Below are positions 4,327 to 60,614 of a stretch of DNA of 64,000 bases, piece by piece. The DNA comes from Kalaharituber pfeilii (lineage: Eukaryota > Ascomycota > Pezizomycetes > Pezizales > Pezizaceae), in NCBI GenBank assembly GCA_015179045.1, contig WHUZ01000009.1:992001-1056000 (forward strand). The letters are read 5' to 3'. The position numbers and the translations under genes were made by a program. The notes beneath the pieces are model-generated. The model was not told the DNA's origin. It did no database searches and saw only the letters and a program-made list of their open reading frames with translations. The stretch's first letter is position 1, and every line of letters starts with the position of its first letter.

Positions 4327-4417
4327 ATTTTTTTTTTTTTTTTTTTTTATCACGTGACCCTGCGTGCAGCTGTTGGCCATGGCAGGGCCCCTGGGTCAAA
4401 GCCCGGAGGCAGGCTTG
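4327..4417 (-). mobile_element. SINE-like retroposon, family A, longest copy
   Basis: Read on the minus strand: a body of about 70 bp ending in GGGTCACGTGAT followed by poly(A), flanked by the 12-bp direct repeat ATGACCTGTCGA at 4315-4326 and 4418-4429. The 3' half matches the other family-A copies (CCCTGCCATGGC... CAGGGTCACGTGA). This copy has about 30 extra bases at its 5' side (GCCTGCCTCCGGGCTTTGAC...), so it may show more of the original element. That head has only a weak resemblance to a tRNA T-arm / B-box. Confidence 0.8.
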
Positions 4418-4429
4418 ATGACCTGTCGA

Positions 4430-6512
4430 TAAAAATCAGCTCAAGATATGAACACCATAGCTTCAACATATCTGCAGCTAAGATAGCCAAGTCGAAGCTG
4501 CTTATTTTCTAGAGATATATTTCACTCAGCAGCCAATGTTAGGTGTGCCTCAGATACTCTATTTCCCATTCAGAAGAATGTCTATCCAACATCCGCAGAT
4601 GAATATGATATCTCGTGTTTTGTGCAGGGCTAGCCTCGGTTGTGTCTCCACAAAAAGACGAAGTCCAATTGCAGAGTTAGCCTTCAGAGGACATATCTGC
4701 TGCGCCTACATTTCGGTTCTGTGCGTGGGGCGAAATCCTCTGACTTGCGCAACTTTAAAAGGCACGTCCGCGCAACTCCAATCATCGCATTAGATTTAAT
4801 AAAGTACTAGTACTTACTCAAGCATACATACACCTACATACAAGAGGCGACGACTCATATAATATCCCTCAGATCAGATCAGATGTTATCGGGCTGCACA
4901 CACCGCCAGTGGTCGAGTTTGAAATCTTACTGTCATATCGTGGTGCCAGATGCAGATTAAGCCTTCGGCAACGTCACGTTACTGGACGGATCAATATGCA
5001 CTCAAGCGTTCGGACCGACAGCTTTGCAGCGCCTCAGCCCCAGATATGTGAGTCTAGATAGAATTTTAATATAATAGACTTAGCTGAACATTGCACTTTA
5101 CAAGGTCTCGGAATTGACGTTTCAATAATTGTGCAGTTAGTCTTCCAATTGAGGAACCGAGAAAATTTCCCGAGCGAGCCCTGCAAGGTGGGAGAATCCT
5201 ATCATTGTCCGTACCTATACTATGCAGAGTACTTCACATGAAAAGATCCTGTCATTAGTACTTAGAATACATCTCTATATACGAGAGGGAAAAAAAAAGG
5301 CCGGAGATAATACTCAAGGCATCATGATATAAGCTTTTACTTTTGCTTCGTTAATACAGCAAAGCCATCGCTGTTCGGTTTGTATCTTAGTTTCGCAATA
5401 ATGTGCGCAAGGCATTCACTCAATGAACCACAGAGTTTACCCCGCACCGCCCCTCTTCGCTGCAATTGCGCAATGCTACCTAAGGACAACAGTCATTTTA
5501 CCGCAATCTCAGCTCTAAGTGTCAGAACAATTCACACAATAACCTAGAGCCATGATACTAGACTATTACGATATGCTAACTGCATGCGCTTAACTCTTGC
5601 AGAATGAAATAAATCTACGGAAACACATGGCGCCTCCGTTCTGGAAAAAAACGCTTAGAGAAAATAAAAAAAAAAGGCGATTTGACCATCGTATGTTAGT
5701 TACTCAATTAACCTATCATGATCATGACAGAAGTGCCTATGTTGAATCTCAATTGGTCCAGCTCTGAGATCAGCCATCTGGATGACGGACAGCGGGAGTG
5801 TCGACTTTGCGCGCAATTCCCACGAACTGTGCATGCGGTTTCCCCAAATTATCGCGGGTCAAAAAACAACAAGAACTGGAATTCTGTGTTGGCTTCACAG
5901 CCTTAACCGTTTTCATAACTGCGTCCAAACGAGGGTGGCGAGCTTGTGCGTTACTGTCTGACACAGCAAGAGTCGCTAACGTGATAAAGCAACACACGAT
6001 CAAACAACTGGAGGGCCCGAGACCGCCCTGAACTCGTCTAGCTGGTTTCTGGTGCCAGCGAATCAATTGGACTTCGGTCGGGCCCACCGTAGACGTTTAC
6101 GTTTGGTTGACGAATTTTACGTTTTTTCAGATCAACGAACCAATCTTCATTGTTCGACTTTCGCCAATCATAGCAAAACACATGCATGCAAGCCCCGCCG
6201 TAACCACATGCCTGGTGCACCCTTGTAGGGCTAAAATGGCTAGAGCAAGTTTGCCCCACCAATGTTTTTGCTGTCCAAACTGACCTCCGAACTTCCGTCC
6301 GCAGGAAAACTTCGAACATCGCATCACTCATGGGCGTGCATCGATTGGATCCGCTTGGCCACTGCTAGCTGTATACGCGATAGATGTGCGCTGTTCAGTG
6401 AGGTCAAAATGACCAAAGTGCTAGTTGGCGGGATAGCATGGCTGCGCTGTTCCTGCTGGCCCGAAAGGGCCGAGGATGCGTACTTTGGCGTAGTTCATCC
6501 TGATTTCCAAAG
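4430..6512. other. Intergenic, no gene seen
   Basis: Mixed sequence with short frames only. I see no domain, splice-linked reading frame or repeat that I can support. Confidence 0.45.
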
Positions 6513-6513
6513 C

Positions 6514-6520
6514 TATATAA
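6514..6520 (+). promoter_or_regulatory. TATA box of the RTHD-repeat gene
   Basis: TATATAA about 150 bp upstream of the ATG at 6670, followed by a CA-rich leader, a common fungal arrangement. Confidence 0.5.
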
Positions 6521-6669
6521 GTGCCATTGACCATCCTTCGAGTTCCTATCTTCCCAGCACCAGACATCACAACAAATCAATCTGCCTTATTACCAGCTAT
6601 TGATCAGCCCACTCAAATCACATCAACTTCGAATTCTAACTCACTCCATCTATATTTACTAATAACAAT

Positions 6670-7436
6670 ATGGCCAGCTCTGGTGTCCACAAGTAAGTGA
6701 TACCAACAATTCACATAAACGAAGAACAGAATTGCTAATCATTCTTAATATAGAGTTCCGGTAGCCCACCCCAAGAATGCCTCCTGCGTTTTGCAAGGAT
6801 TACGAGAATGTGACTGAAATCAAGCTAACATCATTGTAACAGACTCCTCCAGCTTCCCCAAAGGTCAAGGTCAGCTACGATGCGCAAGGTAACAAGGTTG
6901 TAGAGGCTGAAGGCCCCCAACGTGTCCGCACGCACGACTTCACCAACGAGGATGAGATCAATCAGAAGCTCTTCGGCAGTGCGGCTGTGAAGACACAGAA
7001 GGATGTCAGCACATATACAACCAAAGATGGTGATAAAATTCAGCAATACGAGGGCACCGCGCCACAGCGAGTCCGAACACATGACTTCACCAACGAGGAT
7101 GAGATCAATGCGAAGCTCTTCGGCAGCGGTGCAGCGAAGAGAAGCAATACTGCTACCTACCAGGACAAAGACGGCAATACAGTTGAGACCTATGCCGGTC
7201 CCGGCAGTGGCCCTGGTATCCGCACACACGACTACTCGAATGAGGATGAAATCAACCAGAAGCTCTTCGGCTCGGGAGTCGCCCGCACCAACACCGCATC
7301 AAAGACATACATCAATGCCGACGGTGACAAGGAAGAAGTTGCAGCTGAAGACAACATTGGTATCAGGACTCACGATCACTCCGACCAAAATGCCGCCAAC
7401 GAGAAGCTTTTCGGAAAGGGTGCTAAGAACGCATAA
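6670..7436 (+). CDS. Small protein with four RTHD-type repeats (three exons)
   Basis: Proposed exons are 6670-6692, 6754-6787 and 6843-7436, giving 216 residues. Intron 1 has GTAAGT and GCTAATC...TAG. Intron 2 has a good branch point (GCTAACATC) and CAG, but a poor donor (GTTTTG), so the exon 2 end is tentative. The product is small, soluble and without a signal peptide. It carries four imperfect copies of an RTHDFTNEDEINxKLFGS motif spaced about 45-50 residues apart, separated by Lys/Asp/Gly-rich linkers with a TYxxKDG pattern. Copies 1 and 2 are nearly identical; copy 4 is the most diverged (RTHDHSDQNAANEKLFG). I do not recognise a named family with certainty; similar short repeat proteins in ascomycetes are often stress- or conidiation-expressed, which is only a suggestion. 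Confidence 0.75.
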
Positions 7437-8878
7437 ACGCTCCCCTCTTCCGTCGATCAGCGGCTAGCATTTTCCTCTATTAGACGGTCTTAGACTCTGA
7501 TTTTCGGGTTTTGTTCTCATTGCTCATTTCCTTTGTTGCGGTTTTGGGACAGGCGGAATGGATTTGTTTGTTGATGAATATTTATGAGCTTTGGTTTTCC
7601 GTTTTTGTTTTTCAATCTCTTACGGTGCGGTTCGGGGTTACTTCTTCTGGTGGCATAATGTTTGTTTTTTTTGTCGACCTTCGTTCTACTGTCATCTAGC
7701 TATCTAAAGTTCAGTTGTTTGGTAGCGTAGAATGAAGAATCTTCAGAAATCTTTCAGTTCCAAGTTCCCATTCTGCTATGACTATGATTAAAGCGAGCTT
7801 CATCTGTTACGAGGATAGACTGCAGATCCATTTTTCCTGCTTACGCTGGTTAACTAAATGGGGCGGAGCAGTACTCACCATGAGTGTATAGTATGTGCGT
7901 TGAAGAAATTCCCCTTATTTCCAATTCGGGGAACTGAGAGAAATTCCGGTGCACTTCCGGTCCCCCAATCTTCAAAGCATAACCTGAACAATATAGACCC
8001 TTGGTGGAATTTCAATCTCGGGAGTACTTGCTCCTTCACCACGCTCCTCCTTTCCCAAAATTTCACCTATCCTTACGCCAAAGTCTGGGAATTTGCGTTA
8101 GTGAAACCAACGAGAACCCAGATACTACTCAAAGTCTTGCAGAATCAACACTATACATCCCCATTCACATGACGCAATCTTCCTTGGGACTTGGCCAATA
8201 CATGAACATATTATTGTGAATTAATTCAGAATCTTCTTTCATATACACCCATCTCAAATTTTATACAGGATCAAACCGAGTTCTCGGAGTCAATGCCGTC
8301 CAGGCTTATGACTATGCGGTACCAATTCAGGTCCGTCAGGAACTCGAAGAGGCTCTGTTGCTTCTACTTAGTAGAAGTTGGGATGCACAACTGCCACCGG
8401 ATAAACTAGGACCTAAGAAAAGTGTCAGAGTTTCGGGTGTGGTCTTGGCACGGAAGGAACCCCTACAATTTCAAACCCCTTAACATTCTTACAAAGCTAT
8501 TGTTAGAGGAAAACCTCGGCTGGGAGAAAGAGAGTAGCGGCTGGGCAGGAGACTAGAGGAAGAGCTTGCAGTGCGAAAATAAAATTGCAGTACCAATTTT
8601 TTTTGAAGATCACATCTTCCGGTTTTATTATTCATGAGGGCCCTGGTGGAAATGATTCTACAATTATGTATCATGGCTCCTGAGATTCCATGAGCGTTTA
8701 CACATGGATGTTTCTGCAGCGTTTTACCGAAATGCAAGATCAGCACAGCATCAGAACCACGCTATAAGTGTTTTCTAGGAGCGATGGTTGCAACTGTAGG
8801 TGAAGTTTCCGATCGAACATTCAGGCAGAAATTTAGTTAGAGGCTAGTTGTGCGTGCAGCTGGACATGTACTAAGGTC
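7437..8878. other. 3' flank and intergenic stretch
   Basis: T-rich 3' untranslated-like sequence follows the stop, then mixed sequence with no frame or repeat I can support. Confidence 0.4.
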
Positions 8879-9260
8879 GTTTCAAAAGTATTGGGACACA
8901 TGACTAATGCATAGCATGCGCTATGCAGTATCTAGTATGCACTAGTATACTTCTGGATAGGCTAGCGAGAGTAGCAGTCCAATCCGCCTACTTTTACTAT
9001 TACGGCTGCTTGCTCGACCTGCTGTTTTTGGATTCATTTCGGTGAGCATTTTCACAATTTTTATACCCGTGCTGACAACCATTTCAACAGCCATTTTGCC
9101 AGCCATTATGACAGCCACTGCAGCAGCCATTTTGACAGCCATTGCGGTAGCCATTTGACGTTTGCTTTGGCAGGAGGTTTGATAATTATTTCAGATGCTT
9201 TTTTTGACAGTCGTTTTGGCAGCTGTTTCATTGGTCGTTTCACACCTGTGTTGACAACTT
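8879..9260. mobile_element. Remnant of a Tc1-like element with a 12-bp minisatellite
   Basis: Bases around 8886-8965 (AAGTATTGGGACACATGACT... then GCGCTATGCAGTAT...) resemble the repeats at 63105-63299. About 110 bp further on, 9076-9157 is built from degenerate 12-bp units (CAGCCATTTTGA-like). On the minus strand these read as tetrapeptide repeats of the M-A-V-x type. No intact transposase is present. Confidence 0.45.
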
Positions 9261-9975
9261 TCTTTACCCATTCCGGACCGCCATCCCCACTATTATTATG
9301 TATCTAGTGCTATGCCATGTATATGCTATTCTAATTGATGTTTTCATAACTGCAGACTGTGTATGTTGCAAGGTGGAGGTAGAGAACTCAAAGGGCTACC
9401 AAGTGCCGGGTATCCAAAGTAGCATATATTCTTTTCAGCGTCAATCGTTGCTCACAGAGGCAGTTGAAAATACAGATGAGCATAAACATCTCATCGTTGT
9501 GAAGCGACGCTAGTTTGATAGCCAATTTGGGTAGCTTCGTCTTCCCACGTTTTTGGAACGCACCCCAATCCCGAGACCCTTGGCGTTTTGTCCTGACACA
9601 TGGACGTTAAACGTCAAAGCGGCTCTCCAAAGTATTCCCTATCCGTGATCCCAATCTCACCTCTCAGTTAGGCCTGTTGGCAAAATTAGGAAGTGGGAGC
9701 ATTTGACTCCCCACATAGATCAAACCATACCCCCAGTGTACTTCTTGCACCAGGGCGCATTCAATTGCACAGCAATGTTTATTCCAGGTTTCCGACTTGC
9801 AGATGACGCCCTGAGAACGCGTCTATCAGTGTTTCGATACAATAGCGCGTTCGAAGTTAATTTACCCGATGTTTGAATCTTATGTGAACGTTACAAGGTG
9901 GCTGGTTGCGCATGCGCACGCCGCAGGTCTACAGCTAGGCTCGCGGTAATGTGCACAAAGGCCGAATTTCCGCGC
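9261..9975. other. Intergenic, no gene seen
   Basis: No coding signal or repeat that I can support. Confidence 0.4.
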
Positions 9976-9977
9976 TA

Positions 9978-10596
9978 CAGAAGAACCTCTCATATTGGAT
10001 AGTATCGTCGGGGACGGGCCTTCTATCCAATATCGCCTCATATCCAGTAAGAGAGGTTTATTAAGCGGAGAGTCTATATAGTGTCAATACATGACTAGAG
10101 ATGAATCAGTGATATACAGGCTTGAATAATGAATCAGTCAATCCTGAGATCCCAAACCAGCTGTTGATTGCAGCTTAATGAACAGAGTGGGTAATTTTGA
10201 AGGAAGCCATTTGTCTCTCCAATCAGTGTAGTGAACTTGTTAATGCTACGACGGAGCAGTGAAGAGGAGTGTGACCTTGAGGCCATGGTTCCCAGTGCAC
10301 AAGTCAATCAAACTAATTGACAGTGGATATTGTTCACATTATAACTGGAATTAAAGGCCTATATATCACCTATTTTACCTGAGTAGCGTCCTATACAAAG
10401 CATTAGTGTATGGCACTATCCAGTATGACAGGGACAAATTGCTAGTAATATCCCTGTCTGGGCTACATGAACAGGCTATCCATCCAATAACCCCAAATAT
10501 CCAGTACGCTCCATAGTCCCAAACTCGGGAGAGGACCCCGTATCCAATAGCGGCTAATATCCAGTAAGCGAGGTCCCAATATGAGAGGTTCCTCTG
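9978..10596. mobile_element. MITE with TACAGARGAACCTCTC-type inverted ends
   Basis: The left end CAGAAGAACCTCTCATATTGG and the right end CCAATATGAGAGGTTCCTCTG are inverted matches apart from an indel, and both are bordered by TA (9976-9977 and 10597-10598). Subterminal copies of TATCCAATA and ATATCCAGTA occur near both ends. No transposase frame. It ends 300 bp upstream of the start codon of the next gene, close to that gene's TATA box. Confidence 0.75.
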
Positions 10597-10647
10597 TATC
10601 GAAGTTGGCAGAATTCGAGTATCATTGTCTTCTGAATAGCGAACAGG

Positions 10648-10659
10648 TATATATAAATA
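10648..10659 (+). promoter_or_regulatory. TATA box of the Asn-rich secreted protein gene
   Basis: TATATATAAATA about 240 bp upstream of the ATG at 10896, followed by a pyrimidine-rich leader typical of strongly expressed fungal genes. Confidence 0.5.
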
Positions 10660-10895
10660 CTCCGCTCCCGCTCATGTCTTCGATTTTATCCATCTCACAA
10701 CACTCTCTCTACAGCCTTACCTTCTTCAGTATTATCTTCGTTCTCACCGCAAGTCGGTTTTCTATCCACCTTTTTCGTTAAAGCAGTGCTTTCTTAATTT
10801 GATTTACTTCTCTTGAGCCAGTCTCATCTTTGATTAACGTTAACTCTCTCCTTCAAAGATTTATTTACTTTTCGACAAGACTGAATCTAGACGAG

Positions 10896-12051
10896 ATGTT
10901 CGCCTTCAAGAAGCTTCTCACATTCACCTTGCTCTCTGTTGCTTTCGTCGATGCCCGTTTCGGCCAGGAGACTGCCGTGCAGAATGTCATTGCGGCTATT
11001 GGTGGTAACAATGGACAAGCAGCTACTTTAGCTGGACAGTCGATTAGCACTCTCCTTGCTGGGTCGAATGCCTGTGACAAGCTTCGGCTTGCCGATCAGG
11101 TAGCTGCCCTCGAAGGTGCTGGAGCACTAGATGCGGCGAAGAGGCTTGTCCAGGCAGAGAAGAACTTCAATCCCTTTGTTGTTGACAGGCCAAGCATTTG
11201 CGACGATGTGGGGTTGCCCGCCACTACGGCGTTGCGAGGAATCTTGCCTGTAAGTTCTGACTGAGTTGACGTTATCAGTACCTCGACTGAACTGTGAGGT
11301 TAACAAGTTCTTTCTATCGTAGTTGATTGACCCAGCTGTGGAGGGTGCTGCCGAGATCAATGCTCTTAGTGCCCAGACCTTGAATAACCCTCTAAATCAG
11401 GACGGCTTGAGCCAGGCTGACCTGCTCATCGAGCAAGGCTTCACAACTTTCACCGCCCAGACTAGTGGCGGCCAAACCAACACGCCCCCAGTAGGAAATA
11501 ACAACGGCGGGATCAACGACGGAAACAATAACAACGATAACAACAATAATAACAATGATGGTAATAACAATGACGACAATGTCCATGATGGCAATGACAA
11601 TAACGACAACAACAATAATAACAACAACAACAATGGGCAATGCCCTCCCGCGAACAATGATGGTGGAAACACTGGGGGCAACACCGGCGGCAAAAACCCA
11701 ACCAACCTGCAATCCTTCACAGGTAACGTCGGAAGTGACATTGAGCCCATCACATTTTCAGGCAACAATGACCGACCCTTCCAAGTTGCAGGAGACACCT
11801 TTGTTAACTTTGCAGCCGCAGCCGCAAGGACCTGTGATAGGCAGTTTAACCGCTGTGCAGATGCCGCAAATGCGGGAGCAACGGGCTTTAGCTTTGAGGA
11901 TTGTACTACTCAGAAGGCCGCGTGCACTGCTGCGCAGCAATCTGCGCCTGTCACAAGCTTCTCGAGGAGAGCGAGGAGGGGGAGGAGGGGGTTCAAGAGG
12001 AGGGGCGCAAAGAGGGCTATGAAGCGTGCGGTCAAGGTGCAGAAGGCTTAG
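10896..12051 (+). CDS. Secreted Asn-rich protein, cell-wall-type (two exons)
   Basis: Exons 10896-11249 and 11323-12051 (donor GTAAGT, acceptor GTAG) give 361 residues. Residues 1-20 (MFAFKKLLTFTLLSVAFVDA) are a classic signal peptide. A helical, Ala/Leu-rich N-terminal region of about 150 residues with two Cys is followed by a long Asn/Asp/Gly tract (encoded at about 11500-11690). Next comes a conserved-looking C-terminal part (GDTFVN...ARTCDRQFNRCADAANAG...FEDCTTQKAAC) with four Cys, of a type seen in fungal secreted and wall proteins. The last 30 residues are very basic (RRARRGRRGFKRRGAKRAMK), which is odd for a wall protein and might be removed by dibasic processing or bind acidic polymers. 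It converges with the HNH gene. Confidence 0.8.
11500..11690 (+). repeat. AAC/AAT-rich coding microsatellite (poly-Asn)
   Basis: In-frame low-complexity tract of AAC, AAT and GAC codons within the secreted protein gene; likely length-variable between strains. Confidence 0.7.
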
Positions 12052-12371
12052 AGGTGCTCTTCAAGGAAGGAACAAACATGCGGCCGGGCCGGGCTTGGGT
12101 GGACACGGGCAGAGAAAGTTCATACCCAGGTTTGGTTGAAGTATGAGTAGTTGGACGTTGTTCTTGTACTAGTTATTGTTAGTTATTATTCATGGCGCTT
12201 TGTTTATTTTCATGTTATTTTGATATCTTCTTGTTAGAGTGCGCTCGCAAATACGCAAGGAACGCTTTAATGTGAGATCCATCCCTCCCAAACCCAGACC
12301 AAGCCCGCAAACCCTGTTCATTCCCCCTTTCATCAGCCGACCTCCCCATAGCAGCAGCATCACCCTTTCAC
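12052..12371. other. Convergent intergenic region
   Basis: Shared 3' flank of the Asn-rich protein and HNH genes; T-rich stretches on the plus strand fit polyadenylation signals. Confidence 0.4.
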
Positions 12372-13539
12372 CTAAGAAACCATAAAAAGTGATTCTATAT
12401 CCGTGGTACCATCAGGAGCCAAAAACCGACAGAGCTCTCTGTCACGCAATAACTTTTCCAGATACTCTCCCATTCCACTGGCATGCAGTATTTGCGCAAT
12501 CGATGCATGGAGTCCGAAAAGTATTGAGTGCGGAAGACTATGCATTGGGTAGTGATTGGTAAGGGTTACAAGCCTGTTTTCGGGGAGATTGCGAAATTGT
12601 GCTGTCGGAAAACCCCTGTAAGTCTTAATACGGTATATATGGTCATTGGACTTCCATTGTCAGGGTCAGCCTAAGTATGTATGGTAGGTGCTTCAGTGTA
12701 CTTACCGTTGGTTCCAGTACAAATTTGAACTTGTCAAATGCTTCGTGTAGGGGGGCAGTCATGGTGATGGCGTTGCACGGTTCATTAATTCTCTCGGGTG
12801 AGAAGCCGATCCTCGCTCGAATACCTGGAAAGCACCTGTACATAGCATCCCAACTCATGGCACTATTCCTGAGCTAGGAACGAGTCAATCCAGATTTTCG
12901 CCCATACTCGAGGAATGTAGATATACCCCAGACTCAGAGAAAGCCCCAAGTGAAAATGGTATGATATGGCACACTTTTGTGTATTCCAGCATCATAGTAT
13001 TTAGTTCACTTTCCGTGAAATCCATCTTTTCGGCCTCGCCTGCATCGTAGAATCCTGTAACGACACATCTATTTCCATCTCTCTCCAAACATGCTGCCTT
13101 CAACCAGGCCTGGTCTTTGCGAGACCCTGAGTGTGCAAGCTCACCAGCAATCTCATCGGTGTCGCATTCAGCCGCAAACCGTGGCGAGGGTGTAATGCTT
13201 GGGGTTTTCCTCCGAGACTTGACTATACGAATTAGCAACCTGGTCCTGGTTAGAGGGAAGACTTTACTTACAAGGAGCAAGAAGGGCAGTTAAAAAGTGA
13301 TGGGCGAGAGTGCGAAGTTGCTCATCTGAAGAACAGCCAAGGATATCATTGCATACGTTATAAACCCCATCACGGGGCAAGAACCTGACCAAGCTCTTGA
13401 GGATAGGGATAGTATTGTCAGGGGTTGTTATTGGCTGATACATTCCAAGCCTTGTTTCGACTTCACACAGTAACTGGCCATGAGCAGTGATGTTGTTGGG
13501 GACAGAGGACAAGGATGATTGGGAGCTTTGAAGCGGCAT
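12372..13539 (-). CDS. Fungal HNH endonuclease-domain protein (four exons)
   Basis: Exons on the minus strand: 13539-13272, 13222-12927, 12873-12706 and 12650-12372, giving 1011 nt and 336 residues; frames join cleanly at every junction. Introns show GTAAGT or GTATAT donors and branch points such as GCTAAT and GGCTGAC; the last acceptor is AAG. The central part has the hallmarks of fungal HNH_2-type proteins: ERDGNRCVVTG, CHIIPFSLG, then a region with INEPCNAITM, LHEAFDKFKFVLEPT and YRIKTYRGFPT, and a C-terminal LPHSILFGLHASIAQILHASGMG segment. The family is widespread and multicopy in Pezizomycotina; the domain implies metal-dependent nuclease activity, but the biological role is unknown. 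No signal peptide. Confidence 0.85.
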
Positions 13540-13761
13540 CGGGTTATAACTGCCGTGGGCGTAGTCTGGATGGAATGGTGGTGTGTAAGTCCAGACGACG
13601 TAGAAATTGATTGGACACTAAGCCCTATCTGTGCATACAGACGTCATATGTTGTATGCTTGGCGCATCATATGCAAAGCGTTTATGCAGCTGCGCTTGGC
13701 GTGACATAAATACTGGTACCGGTAGCTAAGGACCCTATCCTCGGCTGCGACCCTAAAATGA

Positions 13762-13762
<1 letters not shown>

Positions 13763-13793
<31 letters not shown>

Positions 13794-13808
13794 TTTCATT
13801 ACTCGCAT
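13763..13808 (-). mobile_element. Family-B short retroposon fragment
   Basis: On the minus strand only about 16 bp of body (ATGCGAGTAATGAAAT) precede poly(A). The insert is flanked by a perfect 13-bp direct repeat ACCCTAAAATGAT (13750-13762 and 13809-13821). The body matches the 3' end of the element at 43313-43374, so this is a severely 5'-truncated insertion. Confidence 0.75.
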
Positions 13809-13821
13809 ACCCTAAAATGAT

Positions 13822-14821
13822 AACCACTACAACGCTGACAACAGGCAATGTGAGGGCAGGAGCCACAATGAAGAAAGGGGTTTATCCAAAAGTCTCTTCG
13901 AAAGTTTTGTTCACATAACTGATGGAGAATATCCATTTATCGAAGTGAATGCCTTGGAAAATGAGCGATGTTAGCTCATGAAGGTGCGTACAAGCATATA
14001 TTAGTATACGAAGTAAATGCACGTGCATAAGTAGTCTCGGCACTGAATCTACGCTTCTTTGGGTAATATACTTCACGACAGATGAAGACTTGAGCATCTG
14101 CAGTGCATATTCACACTACACAATTCCTAGCACTAGTGTAAGAGGGCCAGTGATCGGGACCAAGCAATACCCAGACTAAAGCAGTAGTGCAGTCTTGGCA
14201 CAGCCGACTGTGGCTGGTGCTTTATCAACTGTACCATGGCCAGCAACTCACCGACCCTATAGGCCTACAATCCCATTACATGGTGCTCCATCCCTTCCAT
14301 GGCTCCCCGTCTCCACTCCGACGGAACACACATACTCCAAAGCGCGGATCGGTGCCTGACATGGAAGAGTGACCCTTGTGCCAGCTCAGATCATTCTCAT
14401 ATGGACACTCATCCCAACCCTCTACCAGTCTGAGGACTCTGTTTCTTCGACCTGACCTTCTCTTTCACTTGATACTAGCTTGATCAAAGCAGGTTTGTAG
14501 TATTGGCCGCCCAGTGTTAAGAGCACGCGGGCTAATGCTGCATGGGAACATAAAGCTACGAATCCATGGCCGCTACGGAACCCTTACCCAGAGACGGTAG
14601 CAACCCATTAACAATGTCGTATTATCCAGCAACTCAAGATCTACAGAATTCCTACTCGGTGCCAGTCGCTTTATGCCCGCCTAATAGTGCAATTGTCTAT
14701 GAAAATGCTACACCCTTGACTAACAATATAACGCAAAGCCCAGCAAGCTTTTCTGCATGAGACCGTGGTACGGCTGCTATATGATGCATGAATCCAACAG
14801 TCCGTGATCTGCATTGGACTG
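13822..14821. other. Intergenic, no gene supported
   Basis: Only short frames, for example one of 64 codons at 14566-14760, without recognisable features. Confidence 0.4.
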
Positions 14822-14951
14822 AAACCGCCTGGACCGGCCTGATCCACATTCAGGCCGGTACAGGCCAACTAGGCCGGTCCAGGCCAACTAGGCCGGTCCG
14901 GGCCATTCAGGCCGGTCCAGGCCACTGCTGGCCTGGCCTGGCCTGGCCTGT
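14822..14951. repeat. GGCC-rich minisatellite
   Basis: Tandem imperfect units of the form AGGCCGGTCCAGGCCAACT followed by GGCCT pentamers. The block is locally GC-rich against an AT-rich background and dense in GGCC sites, and can fold back on itself. Confidence 0.8.
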
Positions 14952-18606: not shown

Positions 18607-18642
18607 CCGTTGAAGGTTGTGTGTGCAGGGAACTATTGGATA

Positions 18643-18999: not shown

Positions 19000-19010
19000 G
19001 CCCAACTGAT

Positions 19011-19066
19011 GCCCTGCTATGGCGAGCAGCTGCAAGCGGGGTTACGTGACAAAGAAAACAAAAAAA
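19011..19066 (+). mobile_element. SINE-like retroposon, family A
   Basis: GCCCTGCTATGGCGAGCAGC then TGCAAGCGGGGTTACGTGAC, followed by an A-rich tail, flanked by the 11-bp direct repeat GCCCAACTGAT (19000-19010 and 19067-19077). Its tail carries G and C interruptions, so it may be an older copy. Confidence 0.8.
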
Positions 19067-19077
19067 GCCCAACTGAT

Positions 19078-20666: not shown

Positions 20667-20705
20667 TAGTGAAGTAATTGGCGGGGATCGGTTGCGCACG
20701 CAGCT

Positions 20706-42598: not shown

Positions 42599-42610
42599 CA
42601 TCTCACAAGG

Positions 42611-42681
42611 CTTCTGTTTTTTTTTTTTTTTTTTTTTTTTTTGTCACGTCACCCCGCTTGCATCTGTTCGCCATGGCAGGG
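42611..42681 (-). mobile_element. SINE-like retroposon, family A
   Basis: On the minus strand CCCTGCCATGGCGAACAGAT then GCAAGCGGGGTGACGTGAC and poly(A) ending in CAGAAG, flanked by the 12-bp direct repeat CATCTCACAAGG (42599-42610 and 42682-42693). Confidence 0.9.
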
Positions 42682-43107
42682 CATCTCACAAGGATACAAC
42701 TGCCATTTAGTAAGAAAACTTGCCCTGGCCGGACACTATAGTGCCGTTCACGATTGCCGCCATATGAGACCTAGCAAGAGCCGAAATCACAGCCAGATAC
42801 TTATCAAAGAAGGGGAATAGCTCTAGGCCACCATACAGAGGCGGACTGCAAGATTGCAGAGAAGTTTATTCAAAGGAACTTCATCCGAGAACAAAGCCCT
42901 GCTGCAGGAGTGACCCGGAAGCCGGATGGTCCCCTCCTAGACCGAGAGAGAGCGAGAAGAGAAATCGATAAAGTACCCAATAGGACGAAGTTGAGGTCAG
43001 CACCAGGCCCTGACAAGGCCCAGTACCGCCTACTCAAGATGCTAAAGGGCACGACACTAAAGAATAGTGGACTACATCAACGGGGACTACAACTTCGCCA
43101 GAGGCTT

Positions 43108-43168
43108 TTTTTTTTTTTTTTTTTTTTTTTCACGTGACCCCGCTTACAGTTGTTCGCCATGGCAGGGC
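43108..43168 (-). mobile_element. SINE-like retroposon, family A, inside the LINE remnant
   Basis: Minus strand: CCCTGCCATGGCGAACAACT then GTAAGCGGGGTCACGTGA and poly(A), flanked by the 13-bp direct repeat TCGCCAGAGGCTT (43095-43107 and 43169-43181). Confidence 0.9.
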
Positions 43169-43312
43169 TCGCCAGAGGCTTAGGCATTCGCCCTGCTCAA
43201 CACGGTGGCCAAACTAGGATAAAAGATGGTAGCTAACATCGTGCAGACTTAGAACCCACTGTTCCACGAAGCACAACTGGAAGGCAGACCGTGCAGAGGC
43301 TCAGAAGACAGG

Positions 43313-45654: not shown

Positions 45655-45668
45655 ATATACTCAGTATG

Positions 45669-45725
45669 CCCTGCCATGGCGAACAGCTACAAGCGGGGTC
45701 ACGTGAAATAAAAAAAAAAAAAAAA
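45669..45725 (+). mobile_element. SINE-like retroposon, family A
   Basis: CCCTGCCATGGCGAACAGCT then ACAAGCGGGGTCACGTGAAAT and poly(A), flanked by the perfect 14-bp direct repeat ATATACTCAGTATG (45655-45668 and 45726-45739). Body identical to the copy at 59643, so probably young. Confidence 0.95.
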
Positions 45726-45739
45726 ATATACTCAGTATG

Positions 45740-50567: not shown

Positions 50568-53500
50568 AGTGAGTGAAATGTTAATTGGATCGTAGTGCAG
50601 TACAAAATCTGACTGTAGCTGCGGTTGATCGGAGCTGCGGACTGCGCTGAACGAAGGTTGCGACGTAATTATCAGGATTTATGTGGAGGTGAACGAGTTT
50701 TGAGCTGCAGGGAGTCCAAAAGACCTGCAAGATTAGTCTCCTAACTTATTGCAATGTGTACTCTACAGCACAGCTTTTTTTTTTGTCGTTGACATGCAGC
50801 AGAGAGCTGGGGTACATGTATGTCGCCATAGCTGGGTGCTTCCTGGGTGCAGCAGTGTTGCTATGACAGAAAGGAATTAGCAACCCTGCAGGGGTGGAAT
50901 TCAGAATCGACTAGAACGTGAGGAAGCCAATGAGTACGCTCAATAATGTACAAAAAAAAAAAATACCAAACATACTGAACAAGATCAAAATACTGATAAT
51001 TATTATATTTACTCAACCAGGTAAATTCATCAATGTTCGATACATTCAATATCTCCCTAACCACTTGATACTAGTATCCTTAAATGCTACTTATACTGTA
51101 TCGGGGGTTGGTAATGAGAAGTAGCCATGCTGCGACGTTGACACTGTTCAAGTTCAAACTACACACCTAGTAGTATTGCTTGGAAATACTGCAGTAGCAT
51201 CAATTTTGGGAAGAGCAAACTGGCATTGGCATTGCATTGGGTGAAATTGATCGTGGTAGTAAACTGAGGTTCATGTATCTCATGGAGTTCTAAGCTGACA
51301 TAAACTAGCTTGTCTTGTCGTCTTGTACAGTTTGGGGTTACTTCATTTTACCCTGTTTGAATTGCACCCTACAGGGTTAAGTACATGGTTGCAAAATCCC
51401 ACTGTTGGAAAGGGTGCAGGGACGAAAGCTTAAGAGCTAAGCGAGAATGAGGAAAGGGACAAGTGGAAATGAGACAGGGTGATGGCCAGGAAAAGCTTGA
51501 TGAGAGGCAGCCAATGAAAGAGGAGGTGGTGGTGATGGAGCGGAAAATACCCGTATGCGAAGAGGCGGGGAAGGCAGAGATGTAGGAGCAGAATGGTGCT
51601 GCTATGAATAACGATGCACTTACTCTAAGGACGAGCGTGTATGTGACATGGGGGCTGCGGGAGGTGCTGGAGGCGGTGCAGAGCTATCTGTCAGAGTTTG
51701 GATATGCCACACGGCGGTATGATAGATGGAGGATAAATTCACCAATTGAGGAGCTTGCTGTGGTAGCAAAATACTCGATACCATCTCTGCCTCTCTATAC
51801 AGTACTAGCGTATACTACCTATGTAGGTAGTACAGTACGTAGTTATCACAGGAAGCCCAGCTACAGCAGGAAAGGCTTCACAGTCTCACCTTGCCGTAGT
51901 GTTTGAGCCAACGATGGAGGCACCGTGAGCAAGAGAGCGCCTCTGCAGAAGATACTCGTGCAACTTTGTTCACAGATACCAACTGCTGTAAGTTAGGGCT
52001 TGATGGACAGGATTTTAATAAGGGGGGATAAACCATGCATACCAAGTGTAAGCAGTTTTTCATTACTTTCCCTAAACAAATATAGTGATACTGCTGGTCC
52101 CCGTATTCCTCATTTTTTCAGCAGGAGACCCCGAACTAGATGGACGCCTATCAATTGGCATAGGTTAGCCTAGGAACTACAGTAATGGAGTGCCGTTATT
52201 TTGGAAACTCACTTCTCCGGCAGCTTATCCAGAAAAATCTCCCCCTCCTACGGCACCCTCCTTGATCTCCATCTTTCTGGTTATCCATCTTAAATAGACT
52301 TCTGCGGCAGAATCACATAACCGTTGGATGTATAAAGGAAGGAAAGCGGAGCTTGTGTAAAGAGCCGTTTTGTTCACTTCGAAGCCGTGAGTGATGGTGT
52401 ATGATGATTGTTTATTCCTCCTCAGTTGCAATTATAGGTATCCCTCACAATATGCTAGTGATTTGTACGTGCTGAGCTGTTCTCGTGCCCAGAGTCTCCT
52501 CCATCGCATTTGCAGCCAATTGTGTGCGGAGCCCACATTCCCTTGGCGACTAGCAGTCCATGTTGTAGAAACTACAAAAAATCCTGGGAACAAGCGTCCC
52601 AAAATGGGCCCTATTTATACAAGAAGAACTCAGGAAATACCTTCATACATAACTAGACAATTTGGTGCGGTATGAGGTTGTTCATAGTAGCGGATTCAAA
52701 CGGTAAAGAGGATAAACCCATGAAATCATAGAAGCGTCAATCTGTACTATGACCACGGCTCAGGTTGCGTATGTTCGGCACACCTGACCATTATGCCCTT
52801 CAGCGCTGCATATTCTTTCAACAGTCCATACCGCCTGGTATCAACTAAATAAAGCAGTGTTCTCGATCAGTCCCGCATCTCTGTCCCAGAGGTCTTGTTT
52901 TGAAGACATTACTGTGCAGCGGCGCTCATTTTCGCATGACGTCCCGCCATGCACTTTCGCTGCAACATGGATTCTACACTGCACACCCGTAATAAATTTA
53001 GTAAGGACACAAACACTTAAGACCGATAAGTTTCACCCAGTATAACAATACAGGGAGTATAGCAAAGTAACATCTTTGATGGTGGTGGAATAACTCACAA
53101 AATCCATATTCTTGTACAAAGTTCTTGTACGCAAACCACTCCCAAAAGTACAGTAATTAATTATTAACATATCCAAGACACAATTATGAATTTCGGTTAA
53201 GAAAAGTACTGCATCGATCTCGATGTACCCATTGATAATACCCTTTAGCTACTTTCATGGCCGTAGCAAGTGATGTTGCGGGGTGGTACCCAATTCCAAT
53301 TACATCCGTAGATTATCCTATACGCTTAGCTCTCTACTGCATAGTCCAAGGGTGTTGCCTACGCATTGAATATATATGCTGCTGAAGAAACACACGGGCG
53401 CATTTAAGCAATCGCAACACACAGTAAATATAGTGTACTTACATAACCGGGGATTATTCTAGGAATTCAAAGAAACTTTGATCACCTGCACTCATTAACG

Positions 53501-53690
53501 ACCGTTATTAACAAGGGAACCAGCAACAACAAAGAAACATCATGGACAGTCATGCATCGAAGATAAAGTGTTAGTCATTCAATATTATATATAGTACATA
53601 TTTACAATCCCTAAAAGATATCATAATCATCCCCAACATTAAAATTCTATCCCGTTACTATCGTACAACATATATCCAGAAGCAGATCTA
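50568..53690. other. Long intergenic region
   Basis: About 3.1 kb without a supported gene. A 100-codon plus-strand frame at 51604-51906 lies in a G/A-rich stretch and lacks features. A short palindromic CTACCTATGTAGGTAG lies at about 51817-51832. Confidence 0.4.
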
Positions 53691-54947
53691 TCAGCGGCCA
53701 AACAAGCCACCGAATGTGTCCTTAATCTTGTCAATGATTCCCTTGCCCTGTTCAATTGTCTCCTTCACGTCATCCGTGACCTCGCCCACCTTGTCCTCCA
53801 CCTTCTCAACCTTATCCTTCACGGGCTCACTAACATCTTGGACCTTGTCGAAAAGCTTGCTCATTTCACCAGCACTCTTGGTGGGTTGCCAAAGGTTTTT
53901 GGGTTGATCCTTGAAGGTCAATGGAGCGTTAACCCTGTTGCGAGGATCTTTGAAGCCATTGGCAGCATCGATGACGGCAATTGGGTTACCCTCATTGAAG
54001 AAGTCGACCAGGATGTATCCTCCGCGACGTCCCCACTCAGTGGCACACTTCTCAATGCCATCCTTCATGTTACCAGGAATGGACTGATCACCTGAGTTGA
54101 TCTTGGGCGCCAAGTCATCGTGGGGAGTATAAATTTCGAGTCCGAATTCTTCTAGCCTCTTGTCGTACACGAATCGGTTTTGGAAGCCAATACGAGTGGC
54201 AACAGCCTCGTTAAGCTTCTCTGCCCCCTTTACTCTGCCAGGACGGTCGCCGTTGCATGTAAACTTGGCAGGATCAAAGTTCTCGAATGGTGTTTCAAAC
54301 ATATATGAGAACTCGTCAAGCATCCAAGGGATATTTGCCTCATCAGCAGAAGTAGAAATGAAGAGCACAAGCCGTTTCCCAGAGTCAATCATTTGCTGCA
54401 AGGTGGGCCACTCGCCTGGAGTAATCGGGTGCTTGGGTGGGGCGTACGCAAGATTTTTCAAACCGGTATCCGCAAAGTACTTCTCCAAGTCTCGGGCAGG
54501 CATATTGTCGGCATTGACCCAGAGCATGGTCACAACGTCGCTCGGGTGACCATCCATCCAGCTCTTAACCTCAACGAGATAGTCTTCCAATTTTCCTCCA
54601 TCCATCATCTTGCAGTCAGAGTGGCACAAGCGGGGCTTTCCTCCCTCATTGTGAATTTGACCCTGGAGTAACCTCACTCCCCCCTCTAGTTGGGTACGCA
54701 CGTTGAAGTACTGGTTTCCAGCGACGGAATATCCGTTCTCAGGGTGGCGGAGGAATGGAGAGTCATGCGCACCGAGGTGGTAAATCTCGGAGTACTTCTT
54801 GTTACAGAGTGAGGGGTGGTTGTTGCAAGCCGAGGGGTCGTATTGACGTTTGGTCATACCATGGTAGCCAGGGAACGCGAAGGCAGAGGAAAACAATGCG
54901 GTAGCGGTAAGGAGCGTAGGCAAAAGTGCTGCTGGTTGGATGAACAT
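53691..54947 (-). CDS. Secreted PLC-like phosphodiesterase
   Basis: Single exon, 418 residues, ATG at 54947. Residues 1-24 form a signal peptide. A PI-PLC X-type TIM barrel follows: YHLGAHDSPF with catalytic-type His61, then RLLQGQIH and LCHSDCKMMDGG with His109, VTMLWVNAD, VLFISTSADE, and a late GGYILVDFFNEGNP. Four Cys before residue 115 suit an extracellular fold. Bacterial PI-PLC members use two such histidines for cleavage without calcium; fungal members of this branch are little studied. After residue 355 comes a tail of 11-residue-like amphipathic Lys/Glu/Asp/Val repeats (VSEPVKDKVEKVEDKVGEV...), ending GLFGR, that could bind membrane or wall. No intron. Confidence 0.9.
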   Translation of the reverse strand: MFIQPAALLPTLLTATALFSSAFAFPGYHGMTKRQYDPSACNNHPSLCNKKYSEIYHLGAHDSPFLRHPENGYSVAGNQYFNVRTQLEGGVRLLQGQIHNEGGKPRLCHSDCKMMDGGKLEDYLVEVKSWMDGHPSDVVTMLWVNADNMPARDLEKYFADTGLKNLAYAPPKHPITPGEWPTLQQMIDSGKRLVLFISTSADEANIPWMLDEFSYMFETPFENFDPAKFTCNGDRPGRVKGAEKLNEAVATRIGFQNRFVYDKRLEEFGLEIYTPHDDLAPKINSGDQSIPGNMKDGIEKCATEWGRRGGYILVDFFNEGNPIAVIDAANGFKDPRNRVNAPLTFKDQPKNLWQPTKSAGEMSKLFDKVQDVSEPVKDKVEKVEDKVGEVTDDVKETIEQGKGIIDKIKDTFGGLFGR

Positions 54948-57280
54948 ATTGTGTGAATGAGAATAAGATTAAAAAAAATATTATGGGAAAATGCTCAACT
55001 GATGTCGGGTATAACTGAAATGAATGTGCAAGAACCAAAAACGGATTATGCGCAGAGATCCGGCCTCAAGCGCAAAATGGATAGCAGAGAATGACTGACT
55101 GACTGTTGTTAAGAGAATCACAAGAGTGCAGGAGCAAGGGATTATGTAGACAATGGTGATTGTTCAAGTAGTTGATACCCGGTGGAGTCTGGTCAGCAAC
55201 GTACCGGCGAAATCAATGCTATATATACCGGTGAGCCAGCATGAGCTTGTAATACGAACATCTTGCCAATTTAGGGGCTTTCGCCAACTAGAATCCAAGC
55301 TGAATAGCGGACGCTCAGGACTCATCTCCACCTCATTCTGATTCTGGGCGTTGTTGAATCCGCTGTTTTGTGTTGGCCTTGCCCTGAAAGTTGCTAATTT
55401 CCACGACGTCTGTGCCTCGCTGCCGTATTTGGCAAAGGTAGCGGTGTTTACAGAGGGCTGCCAATCAGAGGGCGAGATTTTGTCCGATCGACAGGGACCC
55501 GAACATATGGCAGCGGGCGTCCAGGAACCAAAAAGCCCAACGATGCGACTTGTGATCTACAGGCCCCTATCCTAAGAATAATGTACTTGTTTGTATTTTG
55601 CGGGCCAATGATGACAGAGAGTCAGCGCTTAGGAGGTTCGGTTTCTGACAGACAGGACACGGGAGAGCCTCACTCCTGCCGAGACAGGTGCGGAGTGGGC
55701 TAAAGTTGACATGAGACGGCCCGACGCTTGGAATTGGTACGACTTCGCAGCTGACTGTTCCTCTACGCATAGGCATTCCCGAAAAGTTGCAGTGGCGCAG
55801 GCGACCCCTAGAATGGTGATTTGCATGTTCTGCAGGAGTACCTGGTTTGAGATCAGACCAACCCGCTGTTAATACGGTAAGCTACAAGTTGGAATCTCTT
55901 GCACAGACGCTTGACTACCTTAGTTGGAAATCTGCTTTCTGGTGAAGCATGCTAAATTGGTGCTAGAATTGACCTTGAAGTCACTTTCATCGAGTAAATG
56001 AATTTGCCAGATCCACAAATCATTGGGCTTAAAAATAGTAATGAGAGTTCAAGAACATTCTGAACTCAGACGATTTGCACAAATTTCAACATCAGATGGC
56101 TGCCACGGTCATTCATAGATTTTTACTGACGGAGTAAACCAGTGGGTCCGCATTTCACGATGTTACTCTTTCGGTGGCTTAGCTATAGGAGAGGCGGGGG
56201 TTTCGCATGACAACCTGTGCCACACTTGTAGTCATTGTGCAACACATGGGGTACATTCATTTTTGCTTACTGTGCTGCAAGTGATATAAAAATCTAGAGG
56301 AGTCCTGTACAATCTTTGGATAAAACTGGACGACGGTCAAATGATTGACAAGAAACCACGAACAATGAGCGAATACTGGACAATACGAAACAACTCCGAG
56401 TCGGGGGAGAGTACGTGCATATCATAATGCAAGATCGTTACCCTTACCGGTACATATCTTGATACCTAACCGGCGACGTCGCCGCAAATGACATCATCCA
56501 GACCCCATTGTTTTATTTTCGCAACACACCAGTCCCAACGGTGTAAGTATGCATGTGACCAGAGTAGCTGGGACCTTGTTAAGTAGCATACTGTCAGGAT
56601 GTGGGAATAAGACTGCAATATTATACACGGGGCGTCATGTGTTCTGACAGGAGGCCTCTCACAGCCTCACTCACGGGTACTTTCTTACATATGTATTTTC
56701 TTATTCGCGGGGACAAAGATTGTTTGTTTGGGTAGAGTATGGTCCGAGGACTAATATAGATTATTCACATAGTTGATCTCCTACGCATACCTCCTTATCA
56801 TACTATCAGTCAGTGCCTCTTTCCTCTTACGAGTTTTTGCTAAGCTTGTGACGCAGGCAAACGAAATTCGCAGGAAAGCAAAGGGCGATAAGCCGTTGTG
56901 TCTCTGGAGTCGCCAGGATTCAAAAGGAAACACCATTGAGTTGCCATACTCGGGTATATGGTTTTCATTGCCAGCTGCGGAGCGCATTATTTTCTTGGGG
57001 TATATGTACCCTCCCACTTGGCCTTCTCACAACGCAATGAAATCGATAACGATCGCGACACTACACTTGATTTCTCGCTCTACACCCCAGTTTCTATTCG
57101 TTTCATAACTAAACTACAAAAAAGATCATCCAATAAGCCACATTGCAAAAATGCAACTCCCAAAAAGAAAAAGAAATTACGTCTAACAAAAATTTAACTC
57201 GAATCGTAAACAAAATTCCCGCGTGAGAGGCCTATTTTGCGCAATACTCTACCAGAAGTCCCTTTAAATGCAAGACTACG

Positions 57281-57319
<39 letters not shown>

Positions 57320-57372
57320 TCTGTCTTCAACTTAATATGCAAACATGAACTCTACCATAACCAACTATCAAT
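54948..57372. other. Intergenic region with long poly(A)
   Basis: No gene well supported; one frame at 56773-57108 starts with TTG and has a single hydrophobic helix. A run of about 32 A lies at 57283-57314 with no SINE body or duplicated flank. Confidence 0.4.
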
Positions 57373-60178
57373 CTATTGCTTCTTGTAGTTATCACACTCC
57401 CTCGGGAGCGAAAACCCATTAACTTTGAGGCCGTCCGCAGCAATATGGGCGTCAGTTCCCAAACCACGTTTACTGTTTCATTACAAAACAAGTCAGTCTC
57501 CTTGCAGCAGAGCCATGCTGGCCATTATGGGTAACTTTAGGTTCTCTTACGCAAAACCAGCCCAGATCTCACAAAAGTTTTCGCCTTCTGTCAACAAGAT
57601 GTCCGCATCGATAATCGCATCTCGAGCGTCAAGGAAGGTAGGGTTGCACGGTTGGAGCTTCATGGCCTCAAGAACAATTTTCATGGACAGGTTGCGGCCG
57701 TCTTTGGGGAGGCCGGTGTTCTCGTCAAATTTGGGGAAGATTTCCTCGTCGATACCTGGGTAAAAAACAAGGTGACTTAGGATAAGAAGAAATATCAATA
57801 ATTGACTGTAAACTTACCATATTTATCCACGATATTCCAAAAGACCTCATAAAGCATTGTGGCCCAAATGGTACCAGTGTTGTGAACGAGCATATTGTAA
57901 AACGGACTGTTCAGATTGGCGTAAGTCAAAGGATTTGTCTGGGTGTTGGTCGAGTAAACGCATGTCCTGATACCTAGTTCCCACGAACACAGTTAGGATC
58001 ATTTCTCATTAAAGACATTCTTGTGAATTTTAAAGCCATACCAAGTGGTGCGGGCAATCCAGTAGGATCCTGGAGATACGATCCCATTGCAAAATTTTTC
58101 TCGCGGGTATCTGTGTGCTTCATTCCGATGGCATAAGCATAGAAGTCGCTCCATCCCTCGCCCATTCCAGCGCTTTCGTATGTGTCTAGGCAAAGTGAAT
58201 TCTCTGGGCCTCCAGTAAGACGGATGCTGAGTCCGTGTGTGTATTCATGAATGACAACGCTGGCGTCAAAGCATGAGTCTTTGACTGGTCTGTTGGGCGC
58301 ATCACCATTTGGATTGTTGAATAGGAACATTCTCTGTCGAAGTGCTAGTTGTTTGTCTTCCTGATCAACGGCAGGTTTCGTCTATTGGACCCAATGAACT
58401 TACCATTCTGGGCCTCTCACCATCAGGGGGTGCTTGGAAGTTTGCGTTGTTCATATACTCAGGGTCCATGAGAGCACCCGCATATTGAGCATGTACGTCT
58501 GGCTAATAACTCAGAGAGAGCGCTGTTAGTATATGTTTGAAATCTGGCCATTGCGTAGGACCTACAGCATCACCTCCCTCCCCACCACTCTCTCCAGTAA
58601 TCTCTTCTTCGAAGTTTCCAGCTTGTGATGTGAATCCGAGTTGTTCCAACAGGTCATGAAACTAATCCAGTATTTCCAGTGAGTAACCAGTTTAAGACTT
58701 CTGCGTGAATATGCTTACCATATTAGAAGTATAAAAAAGCTGGGTGGCGGCCGCATCTTGCCAATCACTGATGTTCATGCTGTCTTGTGGGAATGGGAAC
58801 TCAAACTTAAGATCTGGGCCACCGTCTGGGCTGTATAGTGGCAAAAAATCGATCTCTTCCATGTAATGATTAACCAGCGAGATAACATTGTTTCCGCGAG
58901 TGTTGGTAAACTCTGTTGTTGGAGTCTTGTGCCAACCAAGGGGAGATTCTTTCTTCTTGAATGGATCCACCTCAACTGTTCGTTCGCCGGCGCTTGGATC
59001 GATGATACCAAACTTGCTGTTTGACGTGAGTCACGTGCGGGAGTAAGCCAGGACTAGGGGGATTGAGGCTTACTAGACAAGGTAAGAGGCGTCAGCGCCA
59101 TAGTCACCAACAGAATGGAGTTTCTTTTGCTCATGTGCGTCAGCGTAGATGATTAGCCAATCCTTTCCACTATCATATTCGAGCCTCCAGGTAAGCTGCA
59201 GCTCTCCATTGGGATTTTGCATATATGATAAGGTCGCTTCAGGTTTCTGTGAGAATCGTGAGCTCAAATATCACTAAACCCTATGTGGACAACACAATCT
59301 GTATCCTTATGTGCGCCCCGGCAAGCTGGTATTGTACACAGCAGGCTGAACTACTTACTGAGTTTAAACCGTCAACACCAGCAATCACATAGTCTGGCTT
59401 TCTGAAATGCTTCTTTTTGGCCTTGGGGCTGTCGAGCCTGAATTTCTTGCGCGAATTTGTTCGGCCCACCTCAGCATGATTAAACATCTTTCCATCATTG
59501 AGTTTCAAGACTTCTATTGCTCCTTTAAGGGCGTCTAGTGGATTGATTTCCTTCCTCCTTTGAAGATTTCGCTTCACTTTGGCGTTCTTCGTGAAGGATG
59601 AACCCGATGAGTATATTGTGCTATCTTTCAGGACCTGTTATTGCCCTGCCATGGCGAACAGCTACAAGCGGGGTCACGTGAAATAAAAAAAAAAAAAAAA
59701 AAAAAAGGACCTGTTATTAGTATTAATTGCATAATGGTCAGCATGAAAGTTTCTCAGCTTTGAGCTATACAGCAAAATTACAAAGTTAGTAACCCACATT
59801 GACGTTAAATCTTGCATTGTCAATTCGTATCCCTCCAAGTGTCTGCACGGCAAAAACGTGTGTAACACCAGTATCGGTATCAGTATAGTGGGAATCTATT
59901 TCAAACTCGGTTCCTGGTGCAGAGTGCTTTGCGATATGATGCTTTGCAATCTCCACAGGGTCCTTTGTCTTTCTCTCTTGAAGACCCCGGGCCTTTAATG
60001 TTGCACTTGATGTACTATGGTCGTACCTTCCTTGGATCTTTTGTCTGACATCGAGTCCAGCAAAACGACTCCTCAACGCTTGCACCTCCTCCCCACTAAG
60101 ATCATTATGCGCTAGAGTGGGAGTGACGGCGGCAAGCAGCCAGGACGTAAGGAAAACAGAGGAAGTTAAGAATCTCAT
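57373..60178 (-). CDS. Fungalysin, M36 extracellular metalloprotease (ten exons)
   Basis: Exons on the minus strand: 60178-59798, 59634-59359, 59246-59074, 59016-58719, 58661-58566, 58502-58404, 58333-58042, 57973-57818, 57755-57551 and 57472-57373; 2076 nt, 691 residues, all phases consistent. Residues 1-23 are a signal peptide (ending TLAHN). An FTP-type propeptide follows (about 24-250), including [23 protein letters not shown]. The catalytic part holds [30 protein letters not shown] and the zinc motif HEYTHGLS (His470, Glu471, His474), with a third ligand probably Glu500 in GMGEGWSDF. These enzymes are secreted as zymogens and cut proteins outside the cell. Intron 1 carries a SINE at its 3' splice site. 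A TATATAA box lies about 75 bp upstream of the ATG. Confidence 0.95.
59643..59705 (+). mobile_element. SINE-like retroposon, family A, at the fungalysin intron 1 / exon 2 border
   Basis: GCCCTGCCATGGCGAACAGC then TACAAGCGGGGTCACGTGAAAT and poly(A), flanked by the perfect 13-bp direct repeat AGGACCTGTTATT (59630-59642 and 59706-59718). In gene orientation the repeat reads AATAACAGGTCCT and contains the splice acceptor AACAG/G, which is thereby duplicated. The element is antisense to the gene. Confidence 0.95.
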
Positions 60179-60248
60179 GCTGAAGAAGACGCGAAATGCA
60201 ATTGACTGAGCTCAAGCTTGCTGGATTGTCATACGTGGGTTACATCTC

Positions 60249-60258
60249 TGCTTATATA
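60249..60258 (-). promoter_or_regulatory. TATA box of the fungalysin gene
   Basis: On the minus strand TTATATATAAG about 75 bp upstream of the ATG. Confidence 0.55.
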
Positions 60259-60547
60259 TAATAGCCATCCCATACTTAACTGAAAGTCTGTATATGTTTG
60301 TCCTACTCTACGAAGTACCCCGTCAAGGGCTCCTTGCTATGCAAGACACCGCAAGCCATAAAGTGTGTGCCAGCCAGAGGCTATAGCTTGTTAGTGCCCA
60401 CCACAGCATGGGACTGTGTGTATGCATGTAACTTTTTAGCTCGAAAGCACCGACTAGTCCACTTGCCAGCTCTCGATTACCCCACATCCCTTTACAATAA
60501 GTATCCGAGTCGAGTCAGGCTAGAAGACATGCACAGACCAGGCACCG

Positions 60548-60614
60548 GCCCTGCCCTGCGAGTAGGGATAAGCGAGGTTACGTGATACTTTTTTTCTTCC
60601 CCCCCCAAAAAAAA
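60548..60614 (+). mobile_element. SINE-like retroposon, family A, diverged copy
   Basis: CCCTGCCCTGCGAGTAGGGA then TAAGCGAGGTTACGTGATAC, followed by T, C and A runs. It is flanked by a 13-bp direct repeat with one mismatch (AGACCAGGCACCG at 60535-60547, AGACCACGCACCG at 60615-60627). Probably the oldest copy seen. Confidence 0.65.

Follow-up and report, generated by a model that had tools for sequence, protein, structure and literature searches.

Seven times within a stretch of 64,000 nucleotides of the genome of the Kalahari desert truffle, Kalaharituber pfeilii (Pezizaceae; contig WHUZ01000009.1, positions 992,001 to 1,056,000; hereafter the window) the same very short body recurs, followed by an A-rich tail. 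The question raised is whether units so short are a SINE-like family in their own right, as a sequence-only reading of the window proposed, or are derived from a longer element. All seven of the copies listed by that reading are confirmed (Table 1); each has an A-rich tail and its own flanking direct repeat of 11-14 bp, exact in six, and both orientations occur, as claimed. The estimate that most bodies measure about 36-45 bp holds for six sites, where the short unit is 38-39 nt long, but not for the site at 4327, where the unit is 68 nt and no bare short unit is present; this unit starts with CAAGCC and most of its hairpin 2 is missing, likewise in another genomic copy, L013. A covariance model of the 39-nt body, run over the window, returned the same seven sites, six at 48-57 bits and the one at 60548 at 20.3 bits (E = 0.00045); it disclosed no eighth convincing copy there, its sole extra match, at 52313 (E = 0.18), being at chance level. 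A CACGTG palindrome noticed in the body, and likened to an E-box or CLEAR element, is found in only four of the seven window copies and in 37 of 100 copies sampled from the genome; since it is not constant, the E-box idea is unsupported. The window also contains, at 2768-3627, a foldback element with 256-nt inverted arms, 99% complementary and 348 nt apart, which looks like a MITE-type DNA transposon.

Table 1. The seven copies in the window (strand in brackets; positions are those of the window).
Copy	Span	Unit	Tail	Target-site duplication
1	4315..4429 (-)	medium-type, 4350-4417 (68 nt); body with terminal hairpin at 4350-4388, extended 5' to 4417 by a stretch with hairpin 1 and a deleted hairpin 2	A-tail (read as T) 4327-4349	ATGACCTGTCGA at 4315-4326 and 4418-4429
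2	19000..19077 (+)	short, 19011-19049	A-rich, 19050-19066	GCCCAACTGAT at 19000-19010 and 19067-19077
3	42599..42693 (-)	short, 42644-42682	tail region 42611-42643	CATCTCACAAGG at 42599-42610 and 42682-42693; first base of repeat is first base of unit (overlap)
4	43095..43181 (-)	short, 43130-43168	43108-43129	TCGCCAGAGGCTT at 43095-43107 and 43169-43181
5	45655..45739 (+)	short, 45668-45706, exact TACAA variant	45707-45725	ATATACTCAGTATG; last base of repeat overlaps first base of unit
6	59630..59718 (+)	short, 59643-59681, exact TACAA variant	59682-59705	AGGACCTGTTATT
7	60535..60627 (+)	short, degenerate, presumably old, 60548-60585	interrupted, 60586-60614	13 bp with one mismatch

The sequence-only reading had suggested searching the whole genome with the body. 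With up to 3 mismatches allowed, 78.0 Mb in 360 contigs contain 2,466 matches to the 39-nt body and none to its reversed pattern; there are 2,207 exact instances of the 14-mer CCCTGCCATGGCGA (control 0), and an upstream block, AAGCCTGCCTCCGGGCTTTGAGGG, was found 1,063 times with the same tolerance (control 0). The 100 sampled copies are the first 100 listed places of the 14-mer, on contigs C1-C3, and are thus not spread across the genome; some lie in duplicated segments (L042 and L045, for example) and none was removed. The listed 14-mer copies are clustered toward one end of C1, a contig of 2,994 kb where 30 of 37 fall short of about 600 kb, and of C2, 1,541 kb long, where 48 of 57 fall short of about 705 kb. 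Nested insertions, short copies within other copies of the same family, were also seen (L035 around 826, minus strand; L044; L047).

The body comes from a LINE (family F1) that has APE-endonuclease, reverse transcriptase (RT) and RNase H domains and of which it forms the 3'-terminal hairpin; the units thus have the sequence of the 3' end of an element that encodes RT and resides in this genome. When eight long loci were compared, L018, L024 and L025 aligned piecewise over about 1.6 kb, and pieces further upstream aligned too; within the aligned region L024 is longer than L018 by about 500 bp. The LINE domains come from different copies: RT (RVT_1) matches in L040, L041 (below the Pfam cut-off), L178 and L175, an endonuclease (Exo_endo_phos_2) match in L175, and an RNase_H match in L018, whose frame ends in the hairpin-bearing 3' region. 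The linkage of RT to body was followed with 48 F1-type RT matches and 39 about 59% identical to them, from 150 matches scored of 672 candidates; the longest open frames among the RT matches listed are 1,215 aa (F1-type) and 1,321 aa (about 59% identical). An F1-type match starts 2,533-2,537 bp upstream of five of 13 TACAA ends of copies that continue into the LINE, the cross-control giving 0 of 13; three of eight long F1 loci have an RT match, at 2,135-3,007 bp; and 13 of 14 further ends have one at 2,474-2,514 bp, these 14 having been hand-picked because RT matches seemed near, so that they show spacing, not frequency. The longer source for which the earlier reading proposed to look is thus an RT-encoding LINE, with the body about 2.5 kb downstream of the RT matches.

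Three classes of copy can be told apart: S copies (39 nt) begin at the terminal hairpin's foot, M copies (about 77 nt) begin close to the foot of hairpin 1, which lies two hairpins further upstream, and L copies run on into the LINE. Three quarters of the sample (75/100) are S copies, which are without the second hairpin and have no element sequence past one base before CCCTGCC, and the other 25 extend further upstream. The base preceding CCC in the 75 is G in 71, A in three and C in one. LINE-derived sequence thus begins at one base in most copies, which bears out the earlier claim of a shared 5' boundary; the scattered truncation points of 5'-truncated LINEs are not what S copies display. 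The tetranucleotide TCTG lies immediately 5' of CCC in five of the 75. Copies with A as first base number three among the S copies of the sample vs 17 among the extended ones; A-first LINE copies seem to give few S copies. Genome-wide, the exact TACAA variant is represented by 368 copies, of which 41 have the exact extension CCAGGGG, 13 of them L (running into the LINE 3' UTR) and 28 M (at or near the foot of hairpin 1); the other 327 were taken as S, a count in which extended copies mutated in CCAGGGG would be misplaced. The M starts, found 0-5 nt ahead of GCC and in one case 7, are fuzzier than those of S; L157, among the M copies, starts inside hairpin 1. A duplication was recognised in 25 of the 28. 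Both start zones, S and M, are at hairpin feet.

An adjoining duplication scoring at least 9, mostly 12-14 bp long, accompanies 58 of the 75 S copies, compared with 2 of 222 pairings of flanks taken from different copies; in the remaining 17 none was recognised by the script. Together with the A tails this upholds the earlier reading's claim of target-primed reverse transcription (TPRT), and its proviso, that lack of duplications in most copies would count against the idea, does not apply to the S copies. The units do therefore resemble SINEs in being short, non-coding and retroposed by TPRT, with target duplication and A tail. In 37 of the 58 the repeat abuts the G or CCC, in 20 it is separated from the unit by 1-6 further bases, and in one an A replaces the G. 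The extra base next to the G in those 20 is T in 10, C in seven, G in two and A in one, where the F1 LINE has G; remnants of an eroded duplication may account for some of the extra bases. A weak pyrimidine/purine preference is seen at the nick site, and in all three classes the tail most often begins with AATA or AAAA.

A SINE would be expected to have its own lineage, amplified apart from the partner LINE. In the two variants compared, the extended share is the same, 41/368 for TACAA and 11/90 for the other (Fisher p = 0.72), and a SINE with its own lineage is rejected on this ground. F3, a second LINE family with an RT about 59% identical, has 547 ends when as many as 3 mismatches are tolerated (control 0); an RT match of the 59% type lies 2,470-2,877 bp upstream of 15 of the 53 F3 ends entered, of 100 listed, the cross-control giving 1 of 53. 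Of the first 25 exact F3 copies 22 continue into a common upstream sequence and three (L194, L198, L200) are short, starting at the homologous base, which is T before CCC as in the F3 LINE; this is clear in two, and in L194 the T may belong to the duplication. F2, a third variant, has 439 ends genome-wide, and in the one short copy seen (L023) the first base is A, which may belong to the duplication. A first G added without template, derived from a cap, is less likely because the identity of this base tends to go with the LINE family concerned, being G for F1, T for F3 (two clear cases out of three) and A for the sole F2 short copy seen. The equal extended share in two variants, and the short F3 copies at the homologous base, are why the short units look like recurrent retrocopies with 5' ends at hairpin feet, neither random truncations nor an independent SINE. 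The SINE-like, self-contained family of the earlier reading is accordingly not supported: its body forms the 3' end of a LINE that encodes RT, its longer copies run into that LINE, and the F3 LINE yields short copies of its own.

We consider it probable that the short units are retrocopies of the F1 terminal hairpin, made by F1's own TPRT, and that their 5' end is set by the RNA. LINE RNA would be shortened from the 5' direction as far as the foot of a hairpin kept intact by its own stability or by the LINE protein, whether by a 5' exonuclease that stalls there or through protection by that protein; the 39-nt piece left over, which would have the G of GCCCTGCC as its first base and carry poly(A), would be a sufficient template for LINE TPRT. 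The S copies would be by-products lacking a promoter of their own, and not a self-propagating SINE. The more specific proposal, that a discrete, structure-protected 39-nt hairpin RNA with poly(A), arising from decay of LINE RNA, is a complete retroposition substrate in vivo, we put forward tentatively, as something that may or may not prove correct. Several observations speak against the favoured view: the nearly invariant terminal stem, the covariation measures no higher than in shuffles, the modest folding, the difference between F1 and F3 in S share, the scarcity of S copies with A as first base, the fuzzy M starts and the start of L157.

The predicted structure gives a mixed picture. The calculated folding energy of the body is better than that of shuffled sequences only modestly, with z of -1.98, -0.38 and -2.52 for three bodies and from -0.21 to 0.47 for four 65-78-nt forms. 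Covariation was tested on 22 of 56 extended sequences, whose rows are closely related. In hairpins 1 and 2, 22 cells are changed on both sides; the shuffled figure is 7.9, none of 500 shuffles reaching 22, and slid controls give no more than 11; pairs changed on both sides (4 vs 3.1 shuffled) and pair types (13 vs 13.3) do not exceed the shuffles, so that two of the five covariation measures are not above them. Covariation was looked for in the terminal hairpin and none was found, but its stem is nearly invariant and the test is therefore neutral on that hairpin, neither for nor against.

The strongest alternative, though on balance we think it unlikely, is abortive reverse transcription: the template would be longer, RT would stop past the terminal hairpin, for instance at LINE protein sitting on hairpins 1 and 2, and the short cDNA would be integrated. 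Such stops would suit the fact that many copies begin in one or other of two zones, both of them at hairpin feet, and a report on zebrafish L2 LINEs describes binding of the tail stem-loop by the LINE protein (PMC4176376). Some copies, moreover, have lost hairpin 2 (window 4350-4417; L013), which suggests that this stretch troubles the RT. Against this, RT would already have melted the hairpin before reaching the stopping point, and the bases beyond the G are mostly not the G of the LINE (18 of 20), which fits a template ending there. LINE RTs typically add untemplated bases at a template end; with this, the mismatch beside the G favours a fragment over an RT stop.

It is distinctly improbable that the units are true minimal SINEs, made from a separately transcribed 39-nt RNA which matches the LINE tail and is mobilised in trans. 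This would account readily for a sharp 5' end and thousands of copies, for the large excess over LINE copies in F1 and for the far lower S share in F3, a gap (75/100 in the F1-core sample, which also contains A-first LINE copies, vs 3/25 in F3; p = 9e-9) that a simple structure rule does not account for. The equality of extended share in the two variants and the production by F3 of its own S copies argue against it, as does the failure of ARAGORN to find a tRNA gene, and of Rfam to find a family at gathering score, in the window, which holds all seven copies; a known RNA family, self-cleaving ribozyme or tRNA head was likewise unmatched there by these searches. By eye, no Pol III A or B box is apparent in the 39 nt. 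Ordinary random 5' truncation of LINE copies, common as truncation is among LINEs and although L157 and L114 start elsewhere, is barely credible and for the S copies is rejected by their single start base (75/100), so that of the objection which the earlier reading raised against itself, random 5' truncation of a long element, the derivation from a LINE stands and the randomness does not.

If the more specific proposal of a discrete, protected RNA is true, this 39-nt hairpin RNA would be among the smallest natural templates for retroposition, and the genome would contain a fossil readout of the end points of RNA decay. The insertions hint at how little RNA a LINE-type element needs for copying; in their thousands they appear to mark a minimal LINE RNA sufficient for TPRT, made up of a single hairpin, seven bases and poly(A). 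The 39-nt form offers a small, concrete substrate for in vitro study of how LINE proteins choose their RNA. For repeat annotation, a sharp 5' boundary and high copy number are not by themselves proof of a SINE family. In the literature surveyed, mostly titles and the beginnings of abstracts with few subscription papers, we recognised no account of such 39-nt units, which is not proof that they are unpublished.

How do these units compare with known systems? The F1-type LINEs share APE-type endonuclease, RT and RNase H domains with the Tad1/I-type fungal LINEs, the clade to which we presume they belong; among the protein candidates scored, only two (43% and 49% identity) passed E 1e-30. LINE copies truncated at the 5' end commonly keep the 3' end, A tail and target duplication and lose the 5' part, and so do the copies described here; unlike them, most of the 39-nt copies have one fixed start base, with a second, fuzzier zone for those of about 77 nt. 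Short retroposons have been described in another ascomycete, Aspergillus fumigatus: AfuSINE2 is given as 140-493 bp, tRNA-related, with Pol III promoter features, low copy number and target duplications, and AfuSINE3 as 259-343 bp, 5S-related and present in five copies (PMC5063351). The truffle units differ from these in being 39 nt long, derived from a LINE, and present in thousands of copies. The stringent-type LINE/SINE pairs UnaL2 and ZfL2, as portrayed in PMC4176376, are alike in that the 3' end of the LINE has predicted stem-loops and its tail is common to the short copies; here, in contrast, the short copy is the tail alone, with no SINE head, it starts at the foot of a hairpin, and recognition by the LINE protein is putative.
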